Shown here piece after piece: positions 7,929-34,243 of a stretch of DNA of 40,050 nt. A program made the position numbers and the translations under genes. A model generated the notes under the pieces. The model was not told where the DNA came from, did not search any database, and saw only the letters and a list, made by a program, of their open reading frames with translations. The stretch spans positions 1 to 40,050 of the IMG/VR virus record IMGVR_UViG_3300031167_000010. The stretch is one strand, 5' to 3'. The stretch comes from a virus. Position 1 is the first letter of the stretch. Each line of letters opens with the position of its first letter.

Positions 7929-10900
7929 CTAATACAATACAACTACAAAATTAGAACCATTTGCAAATTCAAAAACTGCTGATTTTTTTCTTGAATCTGT
8001 TTTTATAGATATTATTTCTGTTGATACATCTCTACCACCGTTTAAAGATAGTAATATTTTACTAGCATCTTTTCCATCTTTTCCATTTTTTCCATTTGAA
8101 CCTGTATTTCCTGTTGCACCTTGACTTCCTGTATTTCCTTTAACACCTTGCGAACCATTAGCACCATTCGTACCTGCATTTCCTTTCGCACCTGTTGAGC
8201 CTGTATCTCCTTTTAACCCTTGAACACCTTGACTTCCTGCGTTTCCTTTTGCTCCATTCGTTCCGTTAATTCCTGCTGAACCGTTTGAACCTGTCGCACC
8301 TGTCGAACCTTTTAATCCTTGAATTCCTTGAATTCCATTAGAACCTTTTGAACCTGTTGCTCCTGCAGAACCGGTTGAACCTTTCGCACCTGTCGTTCCA
8401 TTCGTACCTGCATCTCCTTTTACACCTTGCGAACCATTCGTTCCTGTCGCTCCTTTTGAACCATTCGTACCATTAGTTCCGGTATCTCCTTTTGCTCCGT
8501 TAGAACCGTTTAAACCGGCATTACCTTTAACACCTTGCGAACCATTTGAACCTGCATTTCCTTTTGCTCCGGTTAATCCTGTTGCACCTCTCGAACCATT
8601 TAAACCATCACTTCCTGCGTTTCCTTTAACACCTTGCGAACCTGTATTTCCGGTCGTACCTTTTGTTCCGGTTAATCCATTCGTACCATTAGTTCCTGCA
8701 TTTCCCTTTGAACCTGTTGCTCCGATATTTCCGGTTAATCCCTTATCGCCTTTTGCACCGTTTGTTCCGTTAGAACCTGCATTTCCTGTTGCACCTGTTG
8801 AACCTGTTGCTCCACGAGAACCATTAATTCCATCTGAACCTGTATCTCCTTTGACACCTTGCGAACCTGCATTTCCTGTAACTCCTTTTGCACCGTTTAA
8901 ACCGTTTGTTCCATTTGAACCTGCATTTCCTTTAATTCCTTGAATTCCCTGTGAACCATTAGCACCATTAGTTCCTGCATTTCCTTTCTCGCCTTTTAAA
9001 CCATTAATCCCATCATTTCCGACATCTCCTTTGACACCTTGAATTCCATTTAAACCTGTATTCCCTTTTGCTCCGTTCGTTCCTGCTGAACCTTTTGAAC
9101 CTGTTGCTCCGACACTTCCTGTTAAACCTGTATTTCCTTTAACACCTTGCGAACCATTTGTTCCGGCATTTCCTTTTGTTCCTGTTAATCCAACATCTCC
9201 TTTTAAACCTTTCGCACCTGTTAATCCAATGTTTCCTTGAATTCCATCACTTCCAATATCTCCTTTGACACCTTGACTTCCTGTATTTCCTGTAGCACCT
9301 TTTGAACCATTAGCACCATTAGTTCCTGCGTTTCCTTTTGCACCGTTTGTTCCGTTAGAACCTGCATTTCCTTTTAACCCTTGTGAGCCTGTATTTCCTG
9401 TAGCACCTTGATTTCCAACATCTCCTTTTATTCCGGAAGAACCTGTTGCACCATTTGTTCCATTAACACCTGCTGAACCTTTTGCTCCATCAATTCCTTT
9501 ATCGCCTTTTGCACCGTTTAAACCTGTATCTCCTTTTGAACCTGTTAAACCTTTTGCTCCATCATTTCCTTTTAATCCTTGACTTCCAATATCTCCTTTA
9601 ACACCTTGAATTCCATTCGCACCTGTTAATCCAATGTTTCCTTTTGCACCTTGTATTCCGGTATTTCCTGTCGCACCTGTCGAACCGTTTAAACCATTTG
9701 AACCATCAATTCCGGCATTTCCTTTTGCTCCGGTTAATCCTTTATCTCCTTGAATTCCTTGAATACCTTTTACACCTTGATTTCCAACATCTCCTTTTGC
9801 TCCAACTGAACCTGTATTTCCTTTTGCACCAACATCTCCTTTTACACCAATATTTCCTGTCGCACCAATATTTCCTTTATCTCCTTGAATTCCCTGCGAA
9901 CCGGTTAATCCAATATCTCCTTTTATTCCGGAATCTCCTTTAATTCCTTGTGAGCCGACAGAACCTTTTGCACCTACTGAACCTTCAGAACCAACATCTC
10001 CTTTTATCCCTTGAATACCTGCTGAACCTTTATTTCCTTCATCTCCTTTATTTCCTTCATCTCCTTTTAATCCGTTAGAACCTGTTAAACCAATATCTCC
10101 TTTAATCCCTTGAATTCCTTTTGAACCTTCATCTCCTTTCAATCCTTGTGAACCTGTATTTCCAACATTACCTTTTAATCCTTGAATTCCGGAATCTCCC
10201 TTTGAACCTGTATCTCCTTTTGAACCAATATTTCCTTTTAATCCAATTACACCTTGAATTCCTTGAACTCCAATATCTCCTTTTGAACCTGTTAAACCAA
10301 CATCTCCTTTTGAACCTGTTAATCCAATGTTCCCTTGAATTCCAATATCTCCTTTAATCCCTTGTGAACCGGTAAAACCTTTTGCTCCAATATCTCCTTT
10401 AATCCCTTGTGAGCCTTCAGCACCAATATTTCCTTTTAATCCTTGAATTCCTTGTGAACCTGTTGCTCCAATATCTCCTTTTAAACCTGTATTTCCTGTT
10501 GCACCTTTTTCTCCGGAATCTCCCTTTATTCCTTGAATTCCAATATCTCCTTTCAGTCCTTGAACTCCTTGAATTCCTGTATCTCCTTTTATTCCGGAAT
10601 CTCCTTTTTCTCCAACATTTCCTTGAATTCCTTTTGAACCTGTATCTCCTTTTAAACCTGTTGAACCTGTCGAACCTGTATTTCCTTTGATACCCTGTAT
10701 TCCATTTTCTCCATTTGTTCCATTAGAACCGTTTAAACCGGCATCTCCTTGAACTCCTTGCAATCCTTGAACACCTTGTTCTCCTTTAACACCTTGAATT
10801 CCTTGGTCGCCTTTCTCTCCTTGTTTTCCTTCTGCTCCTTCAGTTTCTCCCAAATATCTATTTAGATATTCATTAAAAATAGTTATGTTTTCATATTTTT

Positions 10901-11180
10901 CTCCATCTTCTTTTACAATAGAAACGAAATTAAAAACTGTTATTTTTGTTTTAGAATCAGATTCATTTATTGGTATAAAATTCCAATCCTGCATTGCTCC
11001 TAATTTTATAAATTCAGTTCCTTTATAACCTATGAATGGAAGATTTGAGAAAAACGAAAAATTCCCATCTGAATCCATTAAGTGCATTGCATTTTTAGAA
11101 CAAATTTTTATAAATATGTTTTGGCTTTTTGAATCTTTTGCAATTAGCCAATTATCTTTAATGTATATTTTTGTCGCCAT
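7929..11180 (-). CDS. collagen-like tail fibre protein
   Basis: A 1083-residue protein in three parts. Residues 1-114 form a globular N-terminal region with no recognised motif, presumably the part that joins the tail. Residues 115-1038 are 308 consecutive Gly-X-Y triplets with no break in register. Residues 1039-1083 are a C-terminal beta-rich cap ending FEFANGSNFVVVLY. Such repeats form a collagen triple helix, giving a thin trimeric fibre. The repeat contains no proline. Its first half is rich in Ile, Gln, Asp and Lys (GIKGD, GIQG) and its second half in Asn, Ser, Thr and Ala (GTNGTNGAKGNAG). It is the last structural gene before the lysis cassette, where receptor-binding fibres usually lie, so adsorption to the host surface is the likely role. 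Repeated DNA makes length variation by recombination likely. Confidence 0.9.
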   Translation of the reverse strand: MATKIYIKDNWLIAKDSKSQNIFIKICSKNAMHLMDSDGNFSFFSNLPFIGYKGTEFIKLGAMQDWNFIPINESDSKTKITVFNFVSIVKEDGEKYENITIFNEYLNRYLGETEGAEGKQGEKGDQGIQGVKGEQGVQGLQGVQGDAGLNGSNGTNGENGIQGIKGNTGSTGSTGLKGDTGSKGIQGNVGEKGDSGIKGDTGIQGVQGLKGDIGIQGIKGDSGEKGATGNTGLKGDIGATGSQGIQGLKGNIGAEGSQGIKGDIGAKGFTGSQGIKGDIGIQGNIGLTGSKGDVGLTGSKGDIGVQGIQGVIGLKGNIGSKGDTGSKGDSGIQGLKGNVGNTGSQGLKGDEGSKGIQGIKGDIGLTGSNGLKGDEGNKGDEGNKGSAGIQGIKGDVGSEGSVGAKGSVGSQGIKGDSGIKGDIGLTGSQGIQGDKGNIGATGNIGVKGDVGAKGNTGSVGAKGDVGNQGVKGIQGIQGDKGLTGAKGNAGIDGSNGLNGSTGATGNTGIQGAKGNIGLTGANGIQGVKGDIGSQGLKGNDGAKGLTGSKGDTGLNGAKGDKGIDGAKGSAGVNGTNGATGSSGIKGDVGNQGATGNTGSQGLKGNAGSNGTNGAKGNAGTNGANGSKGATGNTGSQGVKGDIGSDGIQGNIGLTGAKGLKGDVGLTGTKGNAGTNGSQGVKGNTGLTGSVGATGSKGSAGTNGAKGNTGLNGIQGVKGDVGNDGINGLKGEKGNAGTNGANGSQGIQGIKGNAGSNGTNGLNGAKGVTGNAGSQGVKGDTGSDGINGSRGATGSTGATGNAGSNGTNGAKGDKGLTGNIGATGSKGNAGTNGTNGLTGTKGTTGNTGSQGVKGNAGSDGLNGSRGATGLTGAKGNAGSNGSQGVKGNAGLNGSNGAKGDTGTNGTNGSKGATGTNGSQGVKGDAGTNGTTGAKGSTGSAGATGSKGSNGIQGIQGLKGSTGATGSNGSAGINGTNGAKGNAGSQGVQGLKGDTGSTGAKGNAGTNGANGSQGVKGNTGSQGATGNTGSNGKNGKDGKDASKILLSLNGGRDVSTEIISIKTDSRKKSAVFEFANGSNFVVVLY

Positions 11181-28231: not shown

Positions 28232-29413
28232 TTATAAAAATGTTATAAGGGGATAACGAATTGAATCACAAGCGTGATTGTGATTGTCTACCGGAATATC
28301 TAAGATTGTTTCAGTTCTTTCGTCAATCTTGAATTTATAGTTATTAAATTCATTTTTAATGTTTTGACTATCTTTATGAACGTGGATATTATATTGGTTT
28401 ACCTTTCTAATGCCATCTAAAATTGAACCACTTCCTTTCTTAGTTTTCATAGCAGGTAGACCGGCCTTTTGTAGCGTAATTATACTTCTTGGCTCTGAAG
28501 TATCACAAACAATATATGTTTTTTGCTCTTTTAATAAAGGTTCTGCCTTTAAAATATTTATTACATCTTGGAAATCATCAATTTCACTTCCATAAAGAAC
28601 CTCTTTAACGTACAAATCATTATCTGATATAATTAATTTTATACAAACTAAAGGGTCATTAAATCCCCAATCTAATCCATAAAAACAATAATCATATCCT
28701 TCCGGTTCTTCATCATACTCGTCCCACTTATGGAATATAATTTCTTTACCTTTATAAACTTCCCCCTTGCCATAAATAGTCCATTTACGCTCATCAGTTG
28801 TTCCCTGTAAATCATTGTACTCTGTTGGTTCATAAGATTCAATCTTGCTTACCTGTGGAGCAGTTAAAAAAGGATTATCAAGATATGACGACCTAAATTC
28901 TGCAACATTATCTCTTTGGTCTAATTTATAAACGTATGAATCCGGTTCAGAAGGGTTACAATCTAATATCCAAAACTCCCTGCATCTTTGTTCTAAATTG
29001 TCAAATGTAACTTTTGGAATATTAATTGCTTCATTAATAAAGAATATATCACAGGCCAAGCCGTGAACCCTCATTGCATCATCTTTCATACCGATAAAAA
29101 TAATTGTATTACCGTTAAATCTTACCGACATTTCTTGCTTATTGAAGTGCATTGTAGGGAACATTTTTGGCATTCCATTGTATCCATAACAAAGTGCTTT
29201 AAAATCCTTTAAAATGGTTCTACGAAGGTTTACTAGGCTATCTCTACCTATTACAATCTCTTTCCCTGTATGTTGCATACAGTAAAGCAGAATCCATTGG
29301 ATAGCAGAAACAGTTTTTGACGACCTTGTTCCACCAACCAACACAACACCACGAAAATTATCTTTGTAGGCATTGTCTATTCTTGCTAAATTAATCGTTC
29401 CCTCTATTTGCAT
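28232..29413 (-). CDS. terL: terminase large subunit
   Basis: A 393-residue packaging motor and nuclease of the PBSX/phage terminase type. Walker A is GGTRSSKT at residues 27-34. Walker B is IFFINEA at 123-129 with Glu as catalytic residue. A coupling motif WILDCNPSEP follows at about 148-157. The nuclease domain shows Asp residues at 248 (YGLDWGF), 304 (VCDTSEPRS) and near the C-terminus (NHACDSIRY). It overlaps the small subunit by 23 bases. The gene order right after the base-modification genes suggests that modified DNA is packaged. Confidence 0.95.
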   Translation of the reverse strand: MQIEGTINLARIDNAYKDNFRGVVLVGGTRSSKTVSAIQWILLYCMQHTGKEIVIGRDSLVNLRRTILKDFKALCYGYNGMPKMFPTMHFNKQEMSVRFNGNTIIFIGMKDDAMRVHGLACDIFFINEAINIPKVTFDNLEQRCREFWILDCNPSEPDSYVYKLDQRDNVAEFRSSYLDNPFLTAPQVSKIESYEPTEYNDLQGTTDERKWTIYGKGEVYKGKEIIFHKWDEYDEEPEGYDYCFYGLDWGFNDPLVCIKLIISDNDLYVKEVLYGSEIDDFQDVINILKAEPLLKEQKTYIVCDTSEPRSIITLQKAGLPAMKTKKGSGSILDGIRKVNQYNIHVHKDSQNIKNEFNNYKFKIDERTETILDIPVDNHNHACDSIRYPLITFL

Positions 29414-29753
29414 CTTTTGGCATTACAATTCTAACTTCAACAGGTTCTCTATCTGATATATGTTCTGTTTGAATTCTTTCCATATAACCTCTATGCTTTC
29501 CTTTAGTTTTTAGATAGAAAATTGTTGCCACGGTATTTCCTTTTCCTATTTGTTTGTAGAGTTGACTTTCTGCAAAGTCTATTGCTATATTTTGTATATC
29601 ATCAACATCTCTAGCAAATTTCTTATCATCTTTTAACCACTTATAAAATTGAGTTCTACCGATACCAACCTTTAAACAAGCAGTCGTTACAACACCAAGA
29701 GATTTCTCTAATGCTTCAATTATAGCTTTTTTATGTTGTTCGGTTTTGTTCAT
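29391..29753 (-). CDS. terS: terminase small subunit
   Basis: A 120-residue protein with an N-terminal helix-turn-helix (ALEKSLGVVTTACLKVGIGRTQFYKWLKDD, about 14-43), which binds the packaging site, followed by a helical oligomerisation part (DFAESQLYKQIGKGNTVATIFYLKTKG) and a charged tail that would contact TerL. This is the usual layout of small terminases. Its start overlaps the FolE-fusion stop in an ATGA, so its translation is likely coupled to that of the modification genes. Confidence 0.85.
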   Translation of the reverse strand: MNKTEQHKKAIIEALEKSLGVVTTACLKVGIGRTQFYKWLKDDKKFARDVDDIQNIAIDFAESQLYKQIGKGNTVATIFYLKTKGKHRGYMERIQTEHISDREPVEVRIVMPKDANRGND

Positions 29754-30580
29754 TTGATTGAGTTTAAAAATTCCATTCTAACTGAAACATCAGTCTTGAA
29801 TACTCCCATTAATTTTGTGGTGGTGGTGTGAGTGTTGTGCTTTTTAACACCACGCATTTCCATACACATGTGCTTTGCCGTTAATTGTACTGCAATCCCT
29901 TTAGGTTCTAATTCTTTCCAAAGGAATTCAGCAACTTGCATTGTAATTCTTTCTTGATTTTGTAACCTTCTTGAAAATGTTTCTAATGTTCTAGCTAATT
30001 TAGATAATCCTACTATTCTTTTATTCGGAATATATGCAATAGTTCCTTCTCCAAAGAATGGTGCAATATGGTGTTCACATAATGAGTGAAAAGGAATATT
30101 TGTTTGGACAATCATTTCGTCATATCCTTCTCCTTCAAATGTTGTGCAATTCCATTTAGGTGGGTTTAAAAATTCTTGAAAAAACTTAATGAATCTTTTA
30201 GGTGTTTCTTTTAATCCTTCCCTGTTTGCATCTTCTCCAAAGTACTGTAAAATTCTACGCACGTTATCTTCAATATTTCCTTCTTCATTTTCCCACGGAA
30301 ATACAAGCCATTCTCCTTTCAATTCAATTCTTTTATCAATTAAGGCAATGAAAGGTTTATCACTAAGTAATGAATATCTATCCATAGTCGCTCCACTATC
30401 AATTAAGTCATCTATAATCACATCAGCTTCTTCAATGGTATCTACTGCGTTCCCTGTCATTCCTGCAACTATTTGTCCCCCTCTAGGAACTCCAAAATAT
30501 TTAGTCGTTTTCGGTAGGTGTTCAGTTGCTTCTTTTAATCTGTGGTAAACCTGTTCCCAATTTATATTCGTTTTTATCAT
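29750..30580 (-). CDS. folE: fusion: phosphoribosyltransferase-like domain + GTP cyclohydrolase I (FolE)
   Basis: 276 residues from the ATG at 30580, which overlaps the queE stop (ATGA). Residues 1 to about 98 look like a short type I phosphoribosyltransferase: VPRGGQIVAG at 31-40 and the PRPP-loop pattern VIIDDLIDSGAT at 54-65. Residues about 102-276 are GTP cyclohydrolase I, complete with the zinc and active-site residues Cys168, His170-His171 (SLCEHH) and Cys239 (KHMCMEMRG). FolE turns GTP into dihydroneopterin triphosphate, the first step towards preQ0. The PRTase part is much shorter than the usual about 150 residues but keeps the key loop. It could recycle purine base to nucleotide or bind nucleotides as a regulator. 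The gene overlaps terS by 4 bases. I know of no standard protein with this fusion. Confidence 0.9.
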   Translation of the reverse strand: MIKTNINWEQVYHRLKEATEHLPKTTKYFGVPRGGQIVAGMTGNAVDTIEEADVIIDDLIDSGATMDRYSLLSDKPFIALIDKRIELKGEWLVFPWENEEGNIEDNVRRILQYFGEDANREGLKETPKRFIKFFQEFLNPPKWNCTTFEGEGYDEMIVQTNIPFHSLCEHHIAPFFGEGTIAYIPNKRIVGLSKLARTLETFSRRLQNQERITMQVAEFLWKELEPKGIAVQLTAKHMCMEMRGVKKHNTHTTTTKLMGVFKTDVSVRMEFLNSIK

Positions 30581-31308
30581 ACCCCTGTTTTTTTGTTCCA
30601 TATTTCAATATGCATTCTAGTTGTGAAATTTAGATAGTTTCTTTTTGCTAAATTTACTACATTTAATTTATTTTCGTTCAATAACTTTTGATTTTCTCCG
30701 GAAGGCATTAAGTAAATTTTCTTCTTATCAATTATTGGTAAATATTTATTTTCTATTTCTTTCCAATCCTTTTTTGAACTTACTACGAATTTAAAAATAG
30801 TGTTTTGTTCATTTAAAGTTTTAATCACGTTCGGTATAAAAGCAACATTATCTTCCATTCCGGAATTAGATAATTTAGGACTACAGTTCCAAAGATTAAT
30901 TGATTCAAGCAATTCTTGTTTGGGCAGGATTGTTCCATTTGTTTCTACTTCAAAAAACACATCACTTTTAATTTCTTTTTTTATGTATTCAATAAATCCA
31001 ATAATGCTAGTTTGTTGCATTAACGGTTCTCCACCTGTAAGAATAACGTGAGCGTCATTTTTAATTGCTTCAATACAATCTTGTGGCAAAATATCTTTAT
31101 ACTCTTTGCTTTGTGCTTTCATCCATACTTCTATACTATCACATCTCCATTCTGCATCATTATGAAGTTCTCCATCAAATTGAGTTCCCATTCCTCCACA
31201 CATTAAATTGCAACCTCCTAGTCTTACAAATACACTTGGAATCCCTATTGTTTTTCCTTCCCCTTGGACTGAATAGAAAACCTCACTTATCGCTAATTTT
31301 TGTTTCAT
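30577..31308 (-). CDS. queE: 7-carboxy-7-deazaguanine synthase QueE
   Basis: 243 residues from the ATG at 31308 (MKQKLAISE), one base after the queD stop. Upstream ATGs would read into queD. QueE is a radical SAM enzyme that makes 7-carboxy-7-deazaguanine from carboxytetrahydropterin. The N-terminus has the FYSVQGEGKTIGIPSVFVRLGG stretch. The cluster cysteines are Cys33, Cys37 and Cys56, a CX3CX18C spacing in place of the usual CX3CX2C: an insert of about 16 residues (GGMGTQFDGELHNDAE) separates the second and third Cys. TGGEP at 91-95 is the SAM-binding motif and VETNGT follows. Length is normal. Confidence 0.92.
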   Translation of the reverse strand: MKQKLAISEVFYSVQGEGKTIGIPSVFVRLGGCNLMCGGMGTQFDGELHNDAEWRCDSIEVWMKAQSKEYKDILPQDCIEAIKNDAHVILTGGEPLMQQTSIIGFIEYIKKEIKSDVFFEVETNGTILPKQELLESINLWNCSPKLSNSGMEDNVAFIPNVIKTLNEQNTIFKFVVSSKKDWKEIENKYLPIIDKKKIYLMPSGENQKLLNENKLNVVNLAKRNYLNFTTRMHIEIWNKKTGV

Positions 31309-31309
31309 A

Positions 31310-31747
31310 TTACTTTTCATAAATTCCCGAATTTTTACTATTTTCAAAACATTCTACCTTTATAACGTGGCATCTTCCACTATCTGTTTTTTTTAGTGTT
31401 TCATTAAATTTGTTAAAAACAAGTTCTGCCAAACTTTCACAACCCATTTTGTCTAGTATTACTAATTTACAAACTTCAGAAGCCGATTGAAAGAAATCTA
31501 AATAAGGGTCGTCTTTTTCTAGCAAAAGAGTGTGGTCAAACATACTGTTCATCCATTCTTTTAAACCGTTATGCTTAAAACCTCCAAAATCAACTATCCA
31601 ATTCATATCATCTAGTTTATCAGCAGAAAACCATACTTTAAAAGATAAAGCATAACCGTGCAAAAGTTGGCAATGACTATGTTTTGCTTTATGTTGTCTT
31701 AATGCAACGGAGTAATTATCGAATACTTTAGTTGAGATATGCTTCAT
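31310..31747 (-). CDS. queD: 6-carboxy-5,6,7,8-tetrahydropterin synthase QueD
   Basis: A 145-residue member of the PTPS/QueD family, which converts dihydroneopterin triphosphate to carboxytetrahydropterin. Active-site residues visible: Cys26 and His30 in HCQLLHGYAL, Asp71-His72 (MFDHTLLL), and Glu132 (VECFEN). The classical HGH zinc motif is HGY here (His30-Gly31-Tyr32), so one zinc ligand must come from elsewhere, perhaps the nearby His-rich RQHKAKHSH. I believe several phage QueD proteins share the HGY form. The start overlaps the queC stop (ATGA at 31747-31744). Confidence 0.9.
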   Translation of the reverse strand: MKHISTKVFDNYSVALRQHKAKHSHCQLLHGYALSFKVWFSADKLDDMNWIVDFGGFKHNGLKEWMNSMFDHTLLLEKDDPYLDFFQSASEVCKLVILDKMGCESLAELVFNKFNETLKKTDSGRCHVIKVECFENSKNSGIYEK

Positions 31748-32931
31748 TTTAAGTAAATTGTTTCATCTGTTATTCCTGCTCTTTTAAATGCTTTTTTTCT
31801 CATATAACAAGGAGAACACTCTCCACAATGATGTTCATTAGCATTATAGCAAGACCAACTTAATTCTATTGGACTATTCCATTTTTTACCAAACTCCACG
31901 ATTTCTTTTTTCATTAAACCACCTAATGGAGTTTTCACTTCTAGTTTATAGCCGTTATTTACTGCTCCATAAAGAAGATTATTAAAATCAATTATAAATT
32001 GTTCTTCGTTGTCCGGATATGCTCCGGATTCTTCTAAATTACTACCTAGATATATATATCCGTATTGATTTGCTTCTGCATATCCTGTAGCTATTGATAG
32101 CATTATTAAATTACGAGCATAAACCCAATCTAAAGCATATTCAACCCCTTCTTTTCCGGATTTAATTTCTTCATCCTTAAATAGTGTTGAGTTACCTTTA
32201 AACTTAGTATAATCTAAATCTAGTATGTCGTATTTTAACTTTTCTTTTTTTGCTATTGATTTTATAGCATCAATTTCCTTTTCAGTAGCCTTACAACCAT
32301 AATTAAAATGGAGCAATAATATACTATCGTGATTTTCTTTAGCATATCCAATTAAGGAAGTACTATCTAATCCACCGGAACAAACAACCAATGCTCTATT
32401 CGGTTGAAATCTTTGAATTAAGCGACTTTCTTTTGTTTTCAATGATAATATACTATAAGGCTTCATTCTTACAGCATTCTCCCCTAAATGGTGCTTTAAA
32501 GAGGAGAAATAGACCTGTCCGTTCTCTTCTAATGTAAAAATCGGTTTATAATTACACGCTAATATAATATCATCTTTTGTAGCTATTGCTATTGCGTAAG
32601 AACCTTTTACTTTTTCTAGTGATTTTTTTAGAGTGTCAAGGTTTGTTATATCAAGAACTTTTGTTAAAATATAACTATCAATTTCATTTGAATCATTTCC
32701 TAGTTCTAAGTCGTTTGAAATTGTCCCATTATGAACTAATTTAAAATCCCTTCCAAATGGTTGATTTCTTTCAACAGAAGATAATTCGTTTGTAGGTGTT
32801 GCTCTGTGGTTTGCAATCCATATATCTCCAATTTGACATAATCCGGAAAAATCTCTTCCTCTATCTTTTGCTTTCTGATATATAGATAATGCTTTTTCGT
32901 CAAAGTTTGTACCTCCTAATATTGAACACAT
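31744..32931 (-). CDS. queC: Gat-QueC fusion: glutamine amidotransferase + 7-cyano-7-deazaguanine synthase
   Basis: A 395-residue two-domain protein. Residues 1 to about 175 form a class II (Ntn) glutamine amidotransferase: Met1 precedes the nucleophile Cys2 (MCSILGG), with HRATPTNE at 42-49 and HNGTISND at 67-74. Residues about 178-395 are QueC: PP-loop SGGLDST at 185-191, then the zinc site Cys361, Cys369, Cys372 and Cys375 (CGECSPC). QueC makes preQ0 from CDG with ATP and ammonia. In Gat-QueC proteins of crenarchaea, and in phage 9g, the fused amidotransferase is linked to converting preQ0 to archaeosine, so dG+ in DNA is the expected product. It lies in the modification operon between dpdA (5-base gap) and queD (overlap). 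Confidence 0.95.
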   Translation of the reverse strand: MCSILGGTNFDEKALSIYQKAKDRGRDFSGLCQIGDIWIANHRATPTNELSSVERNQPFGRDFKLVHNGTISNDLELGNDSNEIDSYILTKVLDITNLDTLKKSLEKVKGSYAIAIATKDDIILACNYKPIFTLEENGQVYFSSLKHHLGENAVRMKPYSILSLKTKESRLIQRFQPNRALVVCSGGLDSTSLIGYAKENHDSILLLHFNYGCKATEKEIDAIKSIAKKEKLKYDILDLDYTKFKGNSTLFKDEEIKSGKEGVEYALDWVYARNLIMLSIATGYAEANQYGYIYLGSNLEESGAYPDNEEQFIIDFNNLLYGAVNNGYKLEVKTPLGGLMKKEIVEFGKKWNSPIELSWSCYNANEHHCGECSPCYMRKKAFKRAGITDETIYLK

Positions 32932-32936
32932 AATTT

Positions 32937-33680
32937 TTATATTATAATTTTATTTTCCATTGATTTACTAAACTTTACCCACTCCCCAAAATTATGATGT
33001 CCTAGTTGAAGTTGATTTTTTATTCTCCCCTTTTTTTTGGTGTCAAGTGTTTTAATTTCTTTTCCGTTGAACCATACTAAAGTCTTATATCTATTTCCTG
33101 CTAACCAACTGCTTGAATCAACTGAATAAAATGGTACTTTTTTTAGTGTTTTCATTCCTGTAATTCCAAGACCGTGAACTTTACAGTTTTGATTCCTTGC
33201 GTCCATTACAAATTTATAAAATGTTTCAGTATCTCCCCAAGCAACATCTTTCCCTGCAATTCCGAGTGAAACATAATCATAATCTTTTATCATTCCATTC
33301 CAATCATCTAACCCTCTTTTCATATGAAAAACAGGTATTGACTGCTTTCCTGTTTTACTTTCAATTTTTCTTCTTAATTGTTTAACCTTTTCATATCCGA
33401 ATATTGAATCAACGTCCATTTCAAAAAACAGGTCAATCTTATTGTTATTTATATATTCAATATATTCGTCTGTAAATTTATCAATGTCAACTTTCTTTTT
33501 TGTTTTTGCCATCATAAAAGTGAAAGCACCACTATCTAAAAGAAATCTATCATATCTTGGAATTGTTTGTTCTCTTATTAAATGTTTTTTAGCATAGAAG
33601 AATGAATCCAATTTGTTAAATTTATAGTCAACTTTTTCAAATATTTCTTCGTATGATTCTCCTGCTAAATATACTTTCAT
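32937..33680 (-). CDS. dpdA: DpdA-like DNA guanine transglycosylase (phage type)
   Basis: A 247-residue protein of the tRNA-guanine transglycosylase superfamily, phage DpdA type, which swaps guanine in DNA for a 7-deazaguanine base. RFLLDSGAFTFM at 46-56 matches the TGT active site (TDSGGFQ) with Asp49. LFFEMDVDSIFG follows at 85-95, IPVFHM at 115-120, VSLGIAGK at 137-144, HGLGITG at 169-175 and the family stretch SVDSSSWLAGN at 186-196 with Asp188, a candidate nucleophile. The TGT zinc site (CxCxxC) is absent and the protein is much shorter than tRNA TGTs, as expected for DpdA. It overlaps the ParB-like gene by 4 bases and is followed by all preQ0 genes. Confidence 0.9.
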   Translation of the reverse strand: MKVYLAGESYEEIFEKVDYKFNKLDSFFYAKKHLIREQTIPRYDRFLLDSGAFTFMMAKTKKKVDIDKFTDEYIEYINNNKIDLFFEMDVDSIFGYEKVKQLRRKIESKTGKQSIPVFHMKRGLDDWNGMIKDYDYVSLGIAGKDVAWGDTETFYKFVMDARNQNCKVHGLGITGMKTLKKVPFYSVDSSSWLAGNRYKTLVWFNGKEIKTLDTKKKGRIKNQLQLGHHNFGEWVKFSKSMENKIII

Positions 33681-34243
33681 AATTCAAGTGCTTTCCAAAT
33701 AATATCTTCTCTACTACCATCTAATGAATTTAGTTTTGAATTTATGATTTCAAAATCATCTGAAGAATACTCCAAAACTATTTTATTTTTTGATTCTTTT
33801 TCTATAATATCATCCTCAAAAAATTCTCCCAAATCTACTTCACTTGTGCTAAATGTTTCTAATCCCCATTCATCTAATTCTTCTTGCTCCCATTCATTTC
33901 CTAAAATATCATAATCCCATTGACCGAAACCAACATTATCCTTAATTAAAAATTGTTTTGTTTGTTCTAAACTTAGGTCTTTAACAACGATTACAGGTAT
34001 TTTTTTTAACCCTGCAGATTGACACGCTCGGTATCTCATATTTCCCCCTAAAATGACACCGTTTTCGTTTACAACGATTGGTCTAATGCTTAACATTTGA
34101 GGAAATTCTTTTACTGACTTTACTAATTTATTAAATTTTTCATCTTTTATGAATCTAGGATTTTGTGGCAAACCTTTGATTTGACCTGTATTCAATGAAA
34201 TATCATTAATATCTAATATTTCTATTTTTGGATTTTTGTCCAT
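33677..34243 (-). CDS. ParB/Srx-like N-terminal domain protein, probable DNA-modification partner
   Basis: A 188-residue protein with a ParB/sulfiredoxin-type domain: SIRPIVVNENGVILGGNMRYRACQ at about 52-75 with GGNMRYRA (66-73) as the nucleotide-binding motif, followed by KKIPVIVV and LSLEQTKQFLIKDNVGFGQWD. This domain, with the same FGQWDYDILGNEWE continuation, is common next to phage DNA methyltransferases, where it appears to act with the modifying enzyme. Here no methyltransferase follows; dpdA does, with a 4-base overlap. It is the first gene after promoter P7. A role in helping DpdA choose or reach its DNA sites is inferred. Confidence 0.75.
   Translation of the reverse strand: MDKNPKIEILDINDISLNTGQIKGLPQNPRFIKDEKFNKLVKSVKEFPQMLSIRPIVVNENGVILGGNMRYRACQSAGLKKIPVIVVKDLSLEQTKQFLIKDNVGFGQWDYDILGNEWEQEELDEWGLETFSTSEVDLGEFFEDDIIEKESKNKIVLEYSSDDFEIINSKLNSLDGSREDIIWKALEL

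Follow-up and report, generated by a model that had tools for sequence, protein, structure and literature searches.

We analyzed the IMG/VR virus record IMGVR_UViG_3300031167_000010 whole, as a single 40,050-bp window (29.5% GC) whose portal, capsid, tape-measure, recombination and single-strand-binding genes mark the source virus, on gene content, as a tailed phage. On the minus strand, from position 34243 down to 29750, lie six co-directional genes in the order ParB-like, DpdA, Gat-QueC, QueD, QueE and FolE, which together make up a 7-deazaguanine DNA-modification cassette. Adjacent cassette genes overlap by 4-38 nt or are separated by a 5-nt gap, and two terminase genes follow folE directly on the same strand, the small subunit gene overlapping folE by 4 nt. 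A first-pass annotation made from the sequence alone had described this run leading into the terminases, as the measured overlaps bear out, and its naming of five enzymes (FolE, QueD, QueE, Gat-QueC and DpdA) agrees with profile matches, catalytic residues and predicted structure; however, it overlooked a xanthine/guanine phosphoribosyltransferase (XGPRT)-like domain on FolE and the ParB/DpdB-like gene at the head of the run. Dozens of IMG/VR contigs carry the same gene set, its order mostly kept and the terminases mostly adjoining, which excludes a chance grouping. At the DNA level the window gave only short matches to phage genomes, within Gat-QueC and folE, and kinship was therefore traced through proteins.

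A miniature XGPRT-like domain on FolE

Residues 1-107 of the folE open reading frame (ORF) do not belong to FolE itself. A single-sequence search with this N-terminal domain gave a weak match to a purine phosphoribosyltransferase, and a profile of 63 relatives matched XGPRT in the PDB (E = 6e-5) in an alignment spanning the N-terminal helix, the pyrophosphate (PPi) loop, the phosphoribosyl pyrophosphate (PRPP) loop, the lysine and the C-terminal tryptophan and end. The AlphaFold2 (AF2) model of the domain (pLDDT 95.9) found E. coli XGPRT 4jls as its top Foldseek match (E = 3.4e-5, probability 1.00, TMq 0.71), and all 13 PDB matches at E <= 1e-3 were XGPRT-type purine enzymes. Pfam assigned no family to the window's own domain (PF00156 was called in 16 of the 63 relatives), so its identity rests on profile, fold and residues.

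The residues in question are the PRPP loop D64-D65-L-I-D68-S69-G-A-T72 and two candidate base contacts, K90 and W98, positions with known roles in XGPRT and HGPRT enzymes. No substitution was seen across 127 sequences at either PRPP-loop aspartate or at the threonine; the catalytic base was Asp in 124 and Glu in 3, and the base-contact positions held Trp in 126 and Lys in 116. Values of dN/dS, rough because several pairs come close to saturation at synonymous sites, were mostly 0.04-0.1 and near that of FolE itself, which points to purifying selection on the domain. It shares with E. coli XGPRT (Gpt; 4jls, 1a95) the type I phosphoribosyltransferase fold, the PRPP loop, the base-contact lysine and tryptophan and a C-terminal W..PW, but it measures ~100 aa, has no flexible catalytic loop segment and in most cases is joined to GTP cyclohydrolase I; by its sequence it thus resembles a miniature XGPRT, not a full member of the family. 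In one pair of loci (L034 and L044), synonymous divergence within the single fused gene was 0.59 for the XGPRT part and 0.25 for the FolE part, which suggests recombination at the domain border.

With L100, a free-standing and diverged copy of the domain, as query, we scanned 2.9 million viral contigs. All 23 viral loci recovered lay beside deazaguanine genes, a count to be read with the query in mind, as L100 is itself a cassette copy and remoter non-cassette homologues would escape the scan. Most were FolE fusions; free-standing copies occurred at different places in the cassette (L100/L114, L115, L117 and L135) and also in L096 and L102. When the L101 and PaMx25 domains served as queries, hardly anything but the query sequences came back. 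In the phage collection, confident matches fell inside FolE genes or abutted them, with fusions in Queuovirinae and in a ~42-kb group of Stenotrophomonas, Pseudomonas and Variovorax phages, none annotated as a phosphoribosyltransferase, and DpdA was present in every domain-carrying phage lineage examined (for MMDA13, from PMC7472734). The Pseudomonas phages PaMx25, NP1 and Quinobequin-P09 (Nipunavirus) combine Gat-QueC with the same fusion, ~48% identical to the window over the XGPRT part and unrecognised in annotations; PaMx25_38, annotated as a separate upstream gene, was rejected as a wrong-frame call lying over it. The literature we searched mentions no phosphoribosyltransferase domain in phage FolE, although two key papers fall outside it and an earlier mention is possible.

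A profile search of 84,980 cellular genomes gave ten loci, comprising five ordinary-size enzymes with the loop, two Chloroflexota chromosomal fusions and three loci beside que genes. The Chloroflexota fusions (L105:7953-8843 and L107:3050-3970) neighbor cyclophilin-like and enoyl-CoA hydratase-like genes, and the L107 FolE, with the zinc motif CENH in place of CEHH, may be altered.

Enzymes of the cassette and known systems

The remaining features are collected in Table 1. The FolE domain scores above the curated equivalog cut-off of TIGR00063. For its ORF, the ATG at 30580 (residue 8) is a likelier start than 30601, since it gives an ATGA overlap with the QueE gene and many relatives' matches begin there. 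Weak QueF matches inside FolE were rejected as known T-fold similarity; no QueF gene was found in the window, in line with the first-pass annotation. QueD and QueE match phage families (PHROG) strongly yet fall under the NCBIfam equivalog cut-offs. QueE has three candidate starts (TTG 31347, ATG 31320 and ATG 31308), and its cluster cysteines are arranged as CX3C-X18-C, with 18 residues between the second and third, compared with CX3C-X6-C or similar in some relatives and CX3CX2C in phage 9g.

Gat-QueC is a class II glutamine amidotransferase fused to QueC, the QueC part scoring above its curated cut-off. It carries the N-terminal nucleophile cysteine, the PP-loop SGGxDS and the zinc cysteines, and in alignment with phages 9g and PaMx25, Cys2, R43, N68/G69, SGGxDS, YPDN and the Cys-rich zinc motif are invariant.

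Table 1 Cassette and terminase features of the window
Feature	Coordinates	Strand	Evidence
Terminase large subunit	28232..29413	-	PF04466 2.9e-15; phrog_2 1.4e-34
Terminase small subunit	29391..29753	-	phrog_309 4.6e-7, phrog_4044 4e-5
XGPRT-FolE fusion ORF	29750..30601	-	PF01227 7e-64 on residues 110-282; relatives align full length
FolE (GTP cyclohydrolase I) domain, residues 110-283	29750..30274	-	TIGR00063 198.7 bits, cut-off 181.6
Mini xanthine/guanine phosphoribosyltransferase domain, residues 8-107	30281..30580	-	Profile, fold, residues
QueE, radical SAM	30577..31347	-	phrog_2076 1.1e-56; TIGR03963 79 bits, below cut-off
QueD (6-carboxytetrahydropterin synthase family)	31310..31747	-	PF01242 4.6e-15; phrog_2389 7.7e-33
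Gat-QueC, 395 aa	31744..32931	-	PF06508 6e-56; PF13537 3e-6; TIGR00364 152.6 bits (cut-off 150.3); phrog_10428 2e-90
DpdA, DNA-guanine transglycosylase, short form, 247 aa	32937..33680	-	phrog_887 2e-50
ParB_N-domain protein, 188 aa	33677..34243	-	PF02195 1.1e-9; phrog_17622 8e-30; phrog_620 1e-26

DpdA had no Pfam match. Its residues D49, S50, G51, D89, H169, D188, S189 and W192 are invariant across 48 relatives, among them the catalytic aspartates (D49, D89 and D188) and the histidine (H169) expected of a 9g-type DpdA; this histidine is reported for the 9g type and absent in DpdA2. Compared by eye, its HGLG stretch matches HGFG of 9g. The AF2 model (pLDDT 88.9) has a fold like that of tRNA-guanine transglycosylase (TGT), and the top six and most of its 13 PDB matches with E <= 1e-3 are such enzymes. 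Directly upstream, with a 4-nt overlap, lies the ParB-like gene, present in 61 of the 82 loci with DpdA and FolE (truncated contigs included). Its ParB domain and position identify it as a putative DpdB-like partner of DpdA; in PADLOC, where the presence of a DpdB model was left unchecked, it had no DpdB match. DpdB-like ParB partners are already known: in the bacterial Dpd system, too, the transglycosylase DpdA is paired with and adjacent to the ParB-superfamily protein DpdB (PMC12839542, PMC6392294), but the window shows no restriction genes and its ParB-like protein is short.

Enterobacteria phage 9g (Queuovirinae, Nonagvirus) likewise clusters FolE, QueD, QueE, Gat-QueC and DpdA, and its Gat-QueC is about 41% identical to that of the window with all motifs in common. 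In contrast, the 9g FolE (204 aa) is without the XGPRT domain, its DpdA is longer (317 aa against 247), its cluster adjoins the replicative clamp and polymerase instead of terminases, and no ParB-like gene is annotated in the ~11 kb examined. The Nipunavirus genes, ordered QueE-GatQueC-QueD-FolE-DpdA beside clamp and polymerase, also differ from the window in layout and in having no ParB-like gene annotated in the stretch examined.

Elsewhere in the window, positions 7929-11180 encode a 1083-aa protein made mostly of collagen-like triple-helix repeats (PF01391, 5 stretches), probably of tail-fibre type; the GC content of this region is 42%, against 29% overall.

Exchange of tailoring genes with DpdA

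Among close relatives, the slot around dpdA is filled by QueC alone, QueC with QueF, a short QueC lacking the zinc motif, Gat-QueC, a QueD-like 110-aa protein (QDL) without QueC, or QDL with a glycosyltransferase. QDL and QueC-type genes did not co-occur: across 80 loci, 32 had QDL, 46 had a QueC-type gene, 2 had neither and none had both. We counted changes of this tailoring label on the gene trees of 40 loci carrying all genes, where the minimum is 5, and obtained 6 for DpdA, against 13 for ParB, 16 for QueD, 20 for QueE, 16 for FolE and 16 for the terminase small subunit (15 for DpdA versus 30 for FolE in a larger set); the trees were quick, with some long branches, and single placements are less sure than these totals. 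As the ParB gene lies as near dpdA as the tailoring genes do, adjacency alone does not explain the coupling. From the trees, the tailoring genes appear to be swapped jointly with DpdA and not with the other cassette genes, and the DpdA subfamily would thus predict the product. In the window itself, FolE is nearest to that of a short-QueC locus (91%), whereas DpdA is nearest to its counterparts in Gat-QueC loci (66%, clade support 100); the picture is that of a Gat-QueC and DpdA unit riding on a shared FolE/QueE backbone.

Several of the alternative tailoring genes are of interest in themselves. QDL (L003:646-981 and relatives) carries the motif HRHxF together with a conserved SCE stretch and is weakly QueD-like, with a hhalign probability of 30% for the QueD relationship, so that paralogy is weakly supported; it is a candidate maker of a base other than preQ0, for example by decarboxylation of 7-carboxy-7-deazaguanine (CDG). 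Fourteen related cassettes combine QDL with a group 1 glycosyltransferase (the best members match PF00534; for example L006:3129-4154, L013:5794-6774, L037:5323-6501 and L049:1846-2805) and have no QueC; a glycosylated deazaguanine in DNA, of which we know no description, is a possible product. L002:1958-2395 and L009:4585-5019 encode miniature QueC-like proteins of ~142 aa, in which the ATP loop is kept and the C-terminal zinc-cysteine motif is gone, within otherwise complete cassettes. L061:2006-2425, between FolE and QueC, encodes a DUF6884/YaaA-like protein (PF21818 6e-35, weak PF03883); PF03883 is the family of DpdC, described in PMC12839542, and the match suggests 2'-deoxy-7-amido-7-deazaguanosine (dADG) as the product.

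The modified base and the fate of the guanine

Cassettes for dG+, the archaeosine form, are known from 9g, R7M, Vid5 and other phages, and on its genes the window's cassette would be a further member of that kind. It contains the genes that define the 9g dG+ group, namely FolE, QueD, QueE, QueC, a 9g-type DpdA and the amidotransferase Gat-QueC (Hutinet et al. 2019). The first-pass annotation had offered dG+ or dPreQ0; dG+ is the most likely product as predicted from the genes, since the Gat-QueC and DpdA pair is that of 9g and QueF is absent. In 9g, this pair put dG+ in plasmid DNA, a queC-deletion host included (PMC6884629). The call is strengthened by the DpdA tree, in which the window falls in a fully supported 5-row clade (SH-aLRT 100) composed solely of Gat-QueC loci. 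A DNA carrying dPreQ0, with Gat-QueC just supplying glutamine ammonia for preQ0 synthesis, or a mixture of dPreQ0 and dG+, is an unlikely but credible outcome, given that the 9g Gat-QueC also performs the QueC step and that gene content has misled before, Streptococcus phage Dp-1 having made dPreQ1 (PMC6884629, Table 2). Against it, the 9g enzyme in the queC-deletion strain gave dG+ only (PMC6884629, Table 1), and the window's DpdA clade is Gat-QueC-specific and stands apart from QueC-only clades. The precursor pathway is common to queuosine as well, but it is very improbable that these genes serve to raise host queuosine in tRNA rather than to modify phage DNA, as the cassette has a DpdA/phrog_887-type transglycosylase instead of a TGT, includes a ParB/DpdB-like partner and lacks QueF. 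The proposed protection from host restriction is carried over from work on phages 9g and CAjan (PMC6884629).

We lean, somewhat beyond an even chance, towards a 9g-type cassette, probably for dG+, to which the FolE-fused mini-XGPRT adds a guanine-salvage step. In this scheme FolE, QueD and QueE would convert GTP to CDG, and Gat-QueC would use glutamine to take CDG to preQ0 and then, probably, to the archaeosine base. DpdA, aided by the ParB/DpdB-like protein, would then replace guanines of the phage DNA by the modified base, each exchange freeing one guanine, which the mini-XGPRT would join to PRPP to give GMP. Host kinases would regenerate from this GMP the GTP on which the fusion's own FolE half acts, and removal of guanine would pull the reversible DpdA exchange forward. 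In 6-oxopurine phosphoribosyltransferases the catalytic Asp acts on N7, which 7-deazaguanines do not have, so the domain should accept guanine and spare the product. With residues of a guanine/xanthine enzyme and a fusion partner that uses GTP, the simplest link runs from guanine through GMP and GTP to FolE. The route was earlier held to depend on host GTP and glutamine alone, which does not stand in detail: by known chemistry QueE requires S-adenosylmethionine (SAM) and QueC requires ATP, and PRPP would be needed for the extra domain.

Several observations weigh against this salvage reading. The flexible-loop segment between the PPi and PRPP loops is deleted from every cassette copy: PRGG and DD stand 21-31 residues apart there, a distance clearly greater in cellular homologues, and phosphoribosyltransferases so reduced could be weak enzymes or sensors of PRPP or GMP. 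The domain is dispensable, FolE being without it in 9g and in the Gat-QueC relatives L088, L090 and L095, which together with the missing loop counts against an essential role; the association with que genes is not absolute either, since neither Chloroflexota fusion has them nearby. An ordinary dG+ cassette whose extra module, catalytically dead or regulatory, senses PRPP/GMP and adjusts FolE would account for the lost loop and the patchy occurrence, and fusion to FolE permits regulation in cis, but we consider it unlikely: the PRPP-loop and base-contact residues are all kept, the catalytic Asp included, and free-standing copies at several cassette positions ill suit a purely cis regulator. 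General purine salvage, in which the breakdown of host nucleic acid would supply xanthine, hypoxanthine or guanine and so GTP for FolE, independently of DpdA, would show the same sequence picture, fitting both the XGPRT-type fold and residues and the use of GTP by FolE; we judge it rather unlikely, as the near viral relatives sit in deazaguanine cassettes and not among general nucleotide-metabolism genes.

The wider proposal is one on which we remain finely balanced, a shade on the doubtful side: that mini-XGPRT is an unrecognised part of many phage 7-deazaguanine cassettes, recycling the guanine released by DpdA to GTP for that pathway and driving the exchange, and that DpdA subfamilies are product-specific and pass from phage to phage with their tailoring genes as one unit. 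The literature we searched holds no discussion of the fate of the released guanine. By our estimate, ~25% replacement in 100 progeny of this genome would free ~3e5 guanines, or ~0.5 mM in a 1-fL cell, and salvage by an enzyme joined to FolE, where the pathway starts, would, if true, explain how phages afford this loss. The coupling of DpdA subfamily with tailoring genes speaks for DpdA recognising either the finished base or the enzyme that makes it, and would provide a rule for predicting a phage's modified base from its transglycosylase.

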